This document shows, in pieces, positions 57,048 through 59,179 of a stretch of 64,000 nt of DNA. Every line of letters begins with the position of its first letter. The stretch's first letter is position 1. The position numbers and the translations under genes are program-made. This DNA is from Fictibacillus solisalsi (lineage in GTDB: Bacteria > Bacillota > Bacilli > Bacillales > Fictibacillaceae): NCBI RefSeq assembly GCF_900103485.1, contig NZ_FNHW01000003.1, positions 124,001 to 188,000 on the forward strand, given 5' to 3'. Under the pieces are notes generated by a model that did not search any database, was not told where the DNA came from, and worked only from the letters and a program-made list of their open reading frames with translations.

Positions 57048-57452
57048 GTGACCATAAATATGATGAAAAAAATGAGAAGCATGGTGGCCGTATTGGTTAT
57101 AATTGGCGGTTGTGCAGCCTATATGTATAGCAGCCTGATGCCGCCGCTTGAGATACAAACTGAAAGAACATCCGCGGTACAAACATGGCTGTACGCAGAA
57201 AATACCGGCCGCTTTCCTATAAAAATAGAAGCTTTTTATATTAATAATAATGAAGTTCCTCCCGAGGCCTCTATGAAGATGAATACTTCTTGGGCTCCGG
57301 CCCGCGGGCAGAAGATTTCTGCAGGAGGAAAAAAGAAAGTACGTATTCTGCATGACTTTCCGGCTAAGCGCATCGTGATTGTTTATCGATATGGAGGCAT
57401 TCCTTTCACTCGTCTGTTCCCTGTAAAGATGTCGGTTACTAATAAAAGATAG
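57048..57452 (+). CDS. Secreted or membrane-anchored protein of unknown function
   Basis: 134 residues with a hydrophobic N-terminal segment (about 12-30, MVAVLVIIGGCAAYMYS; the GGC could be a weak lipobox) and a basic, beta-rich remainder. GTG 57048 follows GGAGGGG; ATG 57060 is an alternative start. No family recognised. It is monocistronic. Confidence 0.6.
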   Translation: MTINMMKKMRSMVAVLVIIGGCAAYMYSSLMPPLEIQTERTSAVQTWLYAENTGRFPIKIEAFYINNNEVPPEASMKMNTSWAPARGQKISAGGKKKVRILHDFPAKRIVIVYRYGGIPFTRLFPVKMSVTNKR

Positions 57453-57572
57453 TGCTTTTTAAGATTTTGTTTAGTTTTTGTTGAGATTTGCAGAAAAAAG
57501 AAGCAATTTTGTAAAAAAACTCATGTATTGAAGATGAAGCAAGCAAAAACCGTTAATATTAGATAAAATAGA

Positions 57573-57605
57573 TTATTCTGAATATTTTAATTATGTTCAG
57601 AATAA
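57573..57605. promoter_or_regulatory. Inverted repeat at the promoter of the tandem-element RNA
   Basis: TTATTCTGAA (57573-57582) and TTCAGAATAA (57596-57605) are perfect complements with a 13-base spacer, overlapping a likely promoter (TTAATT at about 57587, TATAAA at about 57611). The left arm with its flank matches 12 of 15 positions of the CodY box. It resembles the palindrome at 23279-23295. Confidence 0.5.
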
Positions 57606-57633
57606 AGTATTATAAACGTAACAAAAGAAGGGA

Positions 57634-57706
57634 GTAGATTCCAATGAAGAATGAAAGCGAAGCATGCTGAAGAAGCTGTATCCAGCTTATGCATGTGGGT
57701 CTTCAG
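57634..57706 (+). repeat. Tandem element, copy 1
   Basis: GATTCCAATGA, AGCGAAGCATGC, a short hairpin AAGCTG-TATC-CAGCTT (57673-57688), then GCATGTGGG. CTGAAG (57667) also pairs with CTTCAG (57701). A tiny frame at 57643-57669 reads MKNESEAC and is preceded by GGGAG. This copy lacks the long inner stem of the others. Confidence 0.6.
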
Positions 57707-57741
57707 AGTAGTCTATTTAAGAACACATAATCTGTTAAAGG

Positions 57742-57850
57742 CGTGATTCCAATGAAAAATGTTAGCGAAGCATGTCAGGATCGTATCCACCATAAAACCA
57801 GCCCGTGAAAACTGGTTTTGCGATACGTGGACATGTGGGAAACCAGTGAC
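57742..57850 (+). repeat. Tandem element, copy 2
   Basis: GATTCCAATGA, AGCGAAGCATGTC pairing with GACATGT, stem CGTATC/GATACG (57782 and 57822), inner stem AAAACCAG/CTGGTTTT with loop CCCGTGAAAA, then GTGGGAAACC. A frame at 57752-57808 starts MKNVSEAC and continues for ten more residues (18 in total), preceded by AAAGG. Confidence 0.6.
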
Positions 57851-57872
57851 GGGTACGCATTAACTCAGAGGA

Positions 57873-57974
57873 CGTGGTTCCAATGACATCGGCAAGCGAA
57901 ACATGCTAGAATCATGGCGCAAAGGAAAATAGTCCGTGAAAACTATTTTCGCATCATGTGGGCATGTGGGAATC
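57873..57974 (+). repeat. Tandem element, copy 3
   Basis: GGTTCCAATGA closing with GGAATC, AGCGAAACATGC pairing with GCATGT, inner stem GAAAATAG/CTATTTTC with loop TCCGTGAAAA. A frame at 57883-57909 reads MTSASETC, preceded by GAGG. A degenerate trace with GGCATGTG at 58022 may be a fourth copy. Confidence 0.6.
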
Positions 57975-58074
57975 CAAAGAAGGAAAATAAACTGAAAGAT
58001 GCAAGTCTGCAAGTAATGCAAGGCATGTGTTTTAAGTAAAGAAAGGAAAATCAATAAGTGAATAGCAAGTACAT

Positions 58075-58125
58075 TAAATGAGGCGCACGTTTATGTTCAT
58101 TCACATAAACAGCGCCTTATTTTTA
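58075..58125 (+). terminator. Terminator of the tandem-element RNA
   Basis: AGGCGC and GCGCCT enclose TTTATGT/ACATAAA, followed by TTATTTTTAT. It separates the RNA from the downstream FNT-family gene. Confidence 0.88.
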
Positions 58126-58191
58126 TATTTGTATAAACGTTATAACACACGGGTTTTCAGGGAACGTTATGAACAATTTTATTTCACTTTT

Positions 58192-58217
58192 GTTTGAGGC
58201 TTGAAGCCGCAGGGAAT
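58192..58217 (+). promoter_or_regulatory. Possible sigma-B promoter of the FNT-family gene
   Basis: GTTTGA, 14 bases, GGGAAT resembles sigma-B elements (GTTT and GGGTAT) with one mismatch in the -10. It ends 26 bases before the coding start. Low certainty. Confidence 0.3.
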
Positions 58218-58243
58218 CTTAGCATGGAAATGGAGGGGTATGG

Positions 58244-59179
58244 ATGAGCAAAGGTGCTGAAAACAAAGCTTCAGAAACAACCAAGCACGAGAAACCGGAG
58301 CGGCAATATTATTTCCCTGCTCAAATTGTAGAAAGTTTTATAAAAAAAGGAAAAGAGTCCCTGCAAACGACCTATATGGCCCAATTCATTCTTTCGGTTC
58401 TGGCGGGGGCGTTCATCGCATTTGGAGCACTCGGTTCAGTACTGCTCACAATGGATGTGGACAGCCAGGGGGTCATGAATCTGCTTGCAGGTATCGGCTT
58501 TACCATCGGCTATGCCATGGTTTTCTTATCCGGCTCTATTCTTTTTACCGAAGTAAACATACTCCTTCCAAGCTATATCATGCAAAGCAAATACTGGATC
58601 AGTAAAAAACTGCTCTATTTCTGGCTGATCTGTTACATAGGAAACTTCCTTGGCGCGTTATTTGTCGGATTCCTGCTCAATTTTTCAGGATCGCTGCACG
58701 GGGAATTTTACGATCACCTGCTCACCTTCATGGAAAAGAAAATGGAATTTACGCATCGTGGAACATGGGGTTGGTTTCAGGTGCTTTTCTCAGGCATCCT
58801 CGCCAACTGGCTGATTGGAGCGGCAGCGGTTCTTGCTACGGCGGCAAGGGATGTTGTAGGGAAAATACTTGGTATCATGCTGCCTGTCATTATTTTTGAA
58901 GCCGGCAACTTTCAGCATGCCGTTGCAAATATGGGGTATTTCAGCATATCTGTTCTTGAAGGATTTGATATCAGCTGGTACAAGTTTATCCTTTTAAATT
59001 TATTCCCCGCGACCATTGGGAATTTAATCGGCGGCGGGATTCTCGTGTCTCTGCTGCTGTCCTACGCGTATAAGGAAGAAATTGATGAGGGAGTACTGAA
59101 GGAAGAAGAAGAGGCGATTGATGAAATCGAACACAAGGATCAACATGGGGAAATGAAACCCGGCAGTCATAAGGAATAA
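58244..59179 (+). CDS. Formate/nitrite transporter (FNT) family protein
   Basis: Aquaporin-like pentameric anion channel family. Seen: six hydrophobic segments, AGAFIAFGALGSV near residue 55, GSILFTEVNI, ANWLIGAAAVLATAA and FEAGNFQHAVANM, the FNT signature areas. 311 residues with a charged N-terminus and an acidic C-terminal tail (DEGVLKEEEEAIDEIEH, about 280-297). Anion not determined. ATG 58244 is preceded by GGAGGGG. Confidence 0.83.
   Translation: MSKGAENKASETTKHEKPERQYYFPAQIVESFIKKGKESLQTTYMAQFILSVLAGAFIAFGALGSVLLTMDVDSQGVMNLLAGIGFTIGYAMVFLSGSILFTEVNILLPSYIMQSKYWISKKLLYFWLICYIGNFLGALFVGFLLNFSGSLHGEFYDHLLTFMEKKMEFTHRGTWGWFQVLFSGILANWLIGAAAVLATAARDVVGKILGIMLPVIIFEAGNFQHAVANMGYFSISVLEGFDISWYKFILLNLFPATIGNLIGGGILVSLLLSYAYKEEIDEGVLKEEEEAIDEIEHKDQHGEMKPGSHKE

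Follow-up and report, generated by a model that had tools for sequence, protein, structure and literature searches.

Organization of the locus

The window, a 64,000-nt stretch of Fictibacillus solisalsi DNA, contains a locus (57573-58125) flanked by a gene for a 134-residue protein and a formate/nitrite transporter gene (PF01226). This locus is 97% identical to that of a relative genome (G004). Three diverged structured copies of one element had been proposed to lie there on a free-standing RNA. Units of 75 to 107 nt, spaced by 108 and 131 nt, were indeed found on one predicted free-standing transcript (Table 1), together with the promoter-proximal dyad and the strong terminator of the original prediction. 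The putative promoter was assigned by eye from the heads of the loci, TTTACA occupying the place of the -35 box in many relatives; it is absent from the list of sites of a simple scan, and the terminator was not picked up by a simple terminator scan.

Table 1. Coordinates of the array, its parts, and the preceding gene in the window.
Feature	Position	Strand	Evidence or remark
Gene for 134-residue protein, preceding the RNA	57048..57452	+	No Pfam match at E 0.001
Promoter-proximal dyad	57564..57614		Overlaps putative -10
Motif TTATTCTGAATATTT ahead of putative promoter	57573..57587	+	Recurrence of GAATATTT in heads of loci
Putative promoter	57585..57613	+	-35 TTTTAA 57585-57590, 17 nt, -10 TATTAT 57608-57613
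Unit 1, short form (P1, P2, small hairpin; without CCNGUGAAAA loop)	57623..57705	+	R1, E 3.9e-7 (unit outside that model); R2, in L001 (unit inside that model)
Unit 1 micro-frame, MKNESEAC then stop	57644..57670	+	SD-like run AGAAGGGAG 57626-57634
Unit 2, long form	57731..57845	+	R1, E 3.8e-33 (unit inside model)
Unit 2 P1	57747-57750/57838-57841	+	Predicted stem
Unit 2 P2	57770-57776/57830-57836	+	Predicted stem
Unit 2 P3	57782-57787/57822-57827	+	Predicted stem
Unit 2 P4	57794-57801/57812-57819; loop 57802-57811	+	Predicted stem
Unit 2 micro-frame, MKNVSEACQDRIHHKTSP then stop	57752..57808	+	SD-like run TAAAGG 57736-57741
Unit 3, long form	57862..57976	+	R1, E 3.6e-30 (unit inside model)
Unit 3 micro-frame, MTSASETC then stop	57883..57909	+	SD-like run CAGAGGAC 57866-57873
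Tail micro-frame (GTG..TGA), MNSKYIK then stop	58058..58081	+	SD-like AGAAAGGA 58040-58047; stop touches terminator stem
Intrinsic terminator	58082..58124	+	Predicted; stem-loop 58082-58116, T run 58117-58124

The blocks described as common to the copies were recovered in part. Sequence TTCCAATGA and the block AGCGAA(G/A)CATG occur in all three copies, but GCATGTGGG is restricted to copies 1 and 3, its place in copy 2 being taken by ACATGTGGG. The hairpin with loop CCNGUGAAAA is likewise present in the long-form copies 2 and 3 but absent from copy 1. The inner stems of copies 2 and 3 differ in sequence and keep their pairing, as had been stated. The three tiny frames are exactly those proposed; a fourth, encoding MNSKYIK and ending at the terminator, had been overlooked.

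Identity and distribution of the units

The covariance search against Rfam suggested with the original prediction left the locus without a family match, so that the view that no named family fits holds within Rfam 15. At gathering scores, the whole window gave only a c-di-AMP riboswitch (RF00379; 39491-39634, + strand, 94.5 bits), which is away from the array. A permissive search of positions 57450-58250 returned four matches, all scoring far under the gathering thresholds (three to microRNAs and one to a worm sRNA), and the loci of 17 relatives gave only RNase P and cspA, again away from the units. Identity with BsrF was rejected since RF01411 matches a separate locus of the same genome (G000:C4:205249-205360) and nothing at the array. 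The string UUCC..AGCGAA..GGGGA resembles what we take to be a stretch of 23S rRNA; the short-form model described below gave no fourth match at E 0.01 in the genome of the window (G000), from whose assembly rRNA may be missing.

Homologs were searched with BLASTN and with two models, R1 for the long form and R2, built from 14 units, for the short form. At E ≤ 0.1, BLASTN matched 40 of 60 genomes, the window's own included; matches at E ≤ 3e-17 came from 26 genomes, all of the same family, and the remaining matches had E ≥ 0.004. At E ≤ 0.01, R1 matched 26 of the 34 genomes of the family, which are all the genomes of three genera, and none of the eight genomes of the fourth genus, g2 of family f1 (G007, G010, G012, G014, G017, G019, G021, and G023). 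Across the order, R1 matched 51 of 397 genomes, weak matches included, some of them short forms lacking P3 and P4, and R2 matched 80 of 397 at E ≤ 0.01, matches weaker than 1e-4 being doubtful. R2 matched 19 of 398 genomes across the class at E ≤ 1e-4 and 18 of 398 across the phylum at E ≤ 0.01; in the latter sample, only two genomes outside the order, from one family of the same class, had matches at E < 1e-6. Among the named genera that carry the RNA are Rossellomorea, Metabacillus, Halalkalibacter, and Paenibacillus.

Scanning named genomes for an exact pattern yielded 78 stretches. R2 units are present in all 53 that come from Bacillales and Paenibacillus-like genera; the other 25 gave eight weak R2 matches (E 0.0012 to 0.54), which were taken as chance. 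Since the exact pattern belongs to the R2 model, this result is not an independent test.

From the first set of loci, 92 of 101 R2 matches were kept, including a weak one (L165 2635) with E 0.26. Those left out were L159, L167, and L170, which as read by eye lie within protein genes or at their start; L171; a partial match (L085 2711-2746); and four matches with E 0.17 to 0.62 (L154 813, L083 2675, L155 4199, and L085 444). From the pattern stretches, 35 of 108 matches were used, the others coming from near relatives or from loci already included. The match in L167 (2547-2607, - strand, MTEFKLSFSGGG...) is to an apparent ordinary protein-gene start, indicating that part of the R2 model is a translation start region.

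Secondary structure of the units

The 553 nt of the locus fold at z = -5.7. Folded singly, the three copies gave z-scores of -2.7, -0.7, and -1.7, copy 2 being matched by 48 of 200 shuffles. Covariation was assessed in an alignment of 45 long-form units from the window and its relatives, two of which are the window's. RNAalifold predicted P2, P3, and P4; of their 21 pairs, 13 had double-sided changes. After addition of P1, 98.4% of 1125 cells paired and 13 of 25 pairs had double-sided changes. The covariation score of this alignment was reached by none of 500 shuffles and was destroyed by sliding the pairing partner. The compensatory pattern first read from the window as a sign of RNA structure is thus borne out by covariation in the long-form units.

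Two other measures were less uniform. For further pair types, 59 of 500 shuffles attained the count seen in the long-form alignment, as did 494 of 500 for another alignment and 4 of 500 for a set of 67 units; the number of doubly changed pairs was reached by 42 of 500 shuffles in that other alignment and by 61 of 500 in the 67-unit set. The homologs keep P2: in the 67-unit alignment, which was fitted to the model, 99.2% of P2 cells were paired, all six pairs had double-sided changes, and the covariation score was reached by none of 500 shuffles. P1 was weak across the same 67 units (84.7% paired), CC/GG being nearly constant and little else kept. The strong conservation of P2 and the restriction of P1 to little beyond CC/GG indicate that the core of the unit consists of P2 and a long 5' internal loop. 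P3 and P4, with the loop CCNGUGAAAA, are an extension found in some lineages. Covariation and the presence of homologs in many genera support the proposal of a multi-domain structured RNA.

Start codons and short frames

The start place of 127 units was occupied by ATG (107 units), GTG (11), TTG (5), or another codon (4). Thus, 123 of 127 have a start codon, and the four units without one all belong to the 9- and 11-copy arrays. The frames are short: 59 have two codons, 35 have eight, nine have nine, and none exceeds 25. Three of the two-codon frames have AAG in place of the start; the other 56 display the arrangement of a two-codon minigene (SD, start codon, one sense codon, stop), and the three units of the window, with frames of 8, 18, and 8 codons, are not among them. 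Two-codon frames occurred in 14 of 17 lineages, binned by hand, and in none of the 20 units of the window's own genus, which have 8, 9, 13, or 18 codons.

Among 121 distinct units, the third codon was TAG in 28, TAA in 23, and TGA in 6. The second codon varied, being mostly AAR or ACN, for which reason part of the short frame may be an RNA constraint. In two-codon frames, the second codons were AAG, AAA, ACN, ATT, GAA, GAC, CAA, and TAC, and all three stops were used. The distribution of stops between codon 3 and codon 9 or 10 was analyzed in 66 of the 121 distinct units, 55 off-register units being set aside. A stop was present at the first position only in 13 units, at the second only in 36, at both in one, and at neither in 16. 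A stop at codon 9 or 10 was therefore found in 36 of 52 units with a sense third codon vs. 1 of 14 with a stop there (Fisher 3e-5, counting units as independent of shared descent). For one slot type of genus g4, the same four classes contained 12, 4, 0, and 3 of 19 units (duplicates included), with TAA..CAA in ten loci and CAA..TAA in four.

The tiny frames had been put forward as possible leader-like peptides ending in Cys. Among 44 frames of 8 or 9 codons, the last residue was Cys in 21, Tyr in 10, and another residue in 13. This distribution and the abundance of two-codon frames speak against that proposal. Products of the form MxxVSEAY/C recur, and the unit and tail peptides are not conserved. 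The frames are nonetheless a feature in their own right, as proposed, because the start codon, the ribosome site, and the early stop are all kept. In units 5, 9, and 10 of the L165 array, the CC of P1 is lost, yet the SD, start, and stop are kept.

Eleven genomes that had first come up in the class-wide R2 search were fetched after this rule had been formed, three of which had already been looked at (L274, L275, and L278). They provided 19 R2 units, none identical to any of the 127; this later set is not independent of the RNA family, eight of the 11 genomes belonging to one family (f48). All 19 units have a start codon (ATG in 13, TTG in 5, GTG in 1) and a frame of at most 18 codons, which has two codons in seven units. 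Pairing to the 16S rRNA tail, measured as described below, was -13.5 or better, with a mean of -16.9.

Pairing with the 16S rRNA tail

Pairing was measured between the 20 nt preceding the start place and the 3' tail of 16S rRNA (GGAUCACCUCCUUUCU), a sequence present in four of six relatives and not found in the window's own assembly. The mean was -15.1 kcal/mol for 99 distinct upstream sequences, vs. -11.8 for 60 genes of the window at their best start, -6.1 for shuffled sequences, and -5.4 for random positions. The runs that the original prediction had noticed ahead of the three tiny frames paired strongly (-17.6, -12.2, and -15.3). It is the extension GUGAU(U)CC that gives the units their advantage over the genes; when pairing was restricted to the 10-nt anti-SD core, the units were weaker (-8.0 vs. 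-9.4 for the window genes at best start). With P2 taken to start at the base following the GCGAA-type motif, 107 of 121 units have this base +19 to +21 from the start codon, and 11 have it at +14. A ribosome engaged in initiation extends to about +15 to +17.

Tails and heads of the loci

A script located the terminator in 39 of 53 distinct tails. A frame of 6 to 9 codons that has an SD and ends at the terminator was present in 38 of these 39, vs. 0.52 expected from shuffled sequences, under a rule (SD ≤ -5.2, end within -3 to +4 of the stem) whose SD limit was set after viewing the tails. The remaining tail (L090) has the frame with a weaker SD, and several of the 14 tails without a located terminator show the same frame by eye. 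The products differ (MNSKYIK, MLEELIR, MNMFDSR, MEEEIV, MDSDLTT), with lengths of 6 to 9, mostly 7, residues.

Several short-form loci have an extra micro-frame ahead of unit 1, such as MKQFFLSGASP in L229 and MKCLFLFGST in L083. The 190 nt preceding unit 1 include GAATATTT in 28 of 47 Bacillales loci and a near variant in 12 more (raw counts), as against none of nine Paenibacillus-like loci. The best match to the CodY box in 56 heads had on average 3.6 mismatches vs. 4.8 after shuffling, a weak measure, since 20 control loci of BsrF, which is activated by CodY in B. subtilis, gave 4.95 vs. 5.39.

Array length, neighbors, and carriage

The 56 loci comprise one unit in 17 cases, two in 24, three in 10, and four in 3, and the longest arrays, of 9 units (L091) and 11 units (L165), were each found at one locus. 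In the latter array (1803-2764, - strand), two unit types mostly alternate. Genome G403 contains several complete paralogous RNA loci (L156-L158).

Neighboring proteins (75 proteins, 38 of the 56 loci) mostly differ from one bacterial family to another, most of the similar pairs coming from near relatives. One exception is a protein of 120 to 153 residues whose gene lies downstream in L085 and in two Fictibacillus loci, L097 and L172, the three loci representing two families; the protein was matched between families at E 7e-7 to 2e-9 and had no Pfam match (L097/L030 copy). The other exception consists of acetyltransferase-like proteins downstream of L165, L094, and L192. Neither type of protein is encoded directly downstream of the array in the window. 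The terminators and the limitation of similar neighbors mostly to near relatives speak against a leader of a particular gene. A riboswitch was rejected on similar grounds: the RNA has its own terminator and no cis place before a shared gene, the two exceptions being weak.

The window locus had no match among plasmid or phage sequences. The L156 array gave matches of 44 to 52 nt to 12 Priestia and Bacillus plasmids, which stem from the stretch ahead of the array.

Interpretation and alternatives

As judged by sequence comparison, the loci share a structure, a start codon, a ribosome site, a short frame, a tail frame, and a free-standing position. Constraints of translation initiation and rapid termination are repeated along a folded, terminated RNA whose products are not conserved, and the RNA thus probably acts by engaging ribosomes. 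We hold, with slightly better than even confidence, that the locus specifies an independently transcribed and terminated RNA made of tandem ribosome-engaging units and not built to make protein. We infer that the array is expressed and loaded by ribosomes, with throttling or sensing of translation as its purpose.

In the proposed mechanism, the purine run of a unit, extended by GUGAU(U)CC, could pair with much of the 16S rRNA 3' tail. In a typical unit, the frame opened by the start codon stops after a single additional codon or after some eight codons. The unit also has the conserved internal loop (..GUNAGCGAA..) and hairpin P2, which begins at about +19 to +21, near the expected end of a ribosome bound at the start codon. 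The 30S subunits would load on the units and open the weak P1 (UUCC/GGRA); initiation would be followed almost immediately by termination, as happens on known two-codon minigenes. The last micro-frame, of 6 to 9 codons, ends at the foot of the terminator. The output would be engagement of the ribosome, and of initiator-tRNA or peptidyl-tRNA, not a peptide. Several observations weigh against this reading: two-codon frames are missing from the window's own genus, four units have lost the start codon, P1 is weak, pairing to the anti-SD core alone is weaker than that of the window genes, the motif lies at +14 in 11 units, and the short frames could merely serve to avoid read-through. Moreover, ribosome loading does not account for the strongly kept AGCGAA loop or the long-form CCNGUGAAAA loop, which point to an additional ligand or protein.

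Two rivals deserve serious attention: mere stabilization of the RNA, and a protein or ligand that binds the near-invariant AGCGAA loop. The general alternative covering both is a structured regulatory RNA whose units bind a protein or small ligand, acting as a sponge or as an array of sensors; start codons and purine runs would then belong to the bound motif or do no more than stabilize the RNA. The very strong conservation of loop letters not needed for translation and a copy number of 1 to 11, as in sponge RNAs, favor it; so does the stabilization of Bacillus RNAs by ribosome sites, described in PMC3997798 for sites near the 5' end of B. subtilis RNAs. The exchange of ATG, GTG, and TTG, the exchange of the three stops, the varied second codon, and the complementary stops are instead constraints of a coding type, and the L165 units that lack the CC of P1 retain SD, start, and stop. 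We regard such an array as rather unlikely. A sponge for CsrA in particular, recognizing GGA-type motifs, would account for the tandem layout and for the GGA that 83 of 121 distinct units have in their run, but the motif is absent from the other 38, although GG is kept in 119 of 121. The rule for CsrA motifs is GGA in hairpin loops, and the run was in a hairpin loop in none of six folds, making this version hardly credible.

A string of functional micro-peptides, acting as signals or leader peptides, would fit the recurring MxxVSEAY/C and the M(N/S/E)EEIV-like tail products. This reading was rejected as very improbable because nearly half of the unit frames have two codons, conserved RNA letters dictate VSEA, and the tail peptides differ between genera with length kept. 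Improbable, to a lesser degree, is a trans-acting base-pairing sRNA in which the units would be stabilizing modules. The RNA is free-standing and has a terminator, and L156-L158 share, by eye, an extra CU-rich stretch (CUCUCUNGCCAUGGGGAGAUCCUCCUAAU) between the last unit and the tail frame that resembles an anti-SD seed and is possibly one; this stretch was noticed only in these three loci.

Returning to ribosome engagement, a further and tentative proposal, which we consider more doubtful than the engagement itself, is that the arrays are the ribosome's counterpart of 6S RNA. As natural minigenes complementary to nearly the whole 16S rRNA tail, they would trap ribosomes at initiation, or use up particular tRNAs as short peptidyl-tRNAs, and in this way set or sense the capacity for translation, array length serving as the gain. 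If the arrays are ribosome-loaded, they offer a direct test of the idea that bacteria regulate the supply of ribosomes or tRNAs through natural minigenes acting in trans, and their two-codon frames, invisible to annotation, would be under selection across bacterial orders.

Comparison with known systems

An RNA composed of structured start-stop micro-genes in repeated copies is not known to us; none was met in Rfam or in searches of open-access literature, and those searches gave no published expression of the array. The nearest known behavior is that of two-codon minigenes, of which lambda bar is an example. The two-codon minigenes of the axe-txe (mg2) and LEE1/ler leaders, as presented in PMC8708949, have the same succession of SD, start, one more codon, and stop, and ACT, reported there as a toxic codon, is also among the second codons of the arrays. 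Very short frames can inhibit translation on expression, but according to that source mg2 acts in cis and an induced minigene did not inhibit growth. The minigenes described there sit in the leaders of protein genes, whereas the arrays contain up to 11 units in a folded, terminated RNA without a protein gene. The STAB-SD and ribosome-site stabilizers of Bacillus (PMC3997798) share with the arrays a ribosome site without a long frame; the arrays differ in that such a site recurs from unit to unit and is combined with conserved folds and with codons for start and stop.

BsrF (RF01411) resembles the arrays in being an sRNA of Bacillales and differs in occupying a separate locus of the same genome. 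The CsrB/RsmZ sponges consist of tandem folded units with purine motifs and variable copy number. The arrays share these traits, but many of their units lack GGA, and their start and stop codons are kept. The 6S RNA is a free-standing RNA that mimics a start site and thereby occupies RNA polymerase. If the decoy reading is right, the arrays would be similar to 6S RNA as free-standing start-site mimics occupying a central machine, with the difference that this machine would be the ribosome instead of RNA polymerase, and that the array locus has no Rfam match of any kind.
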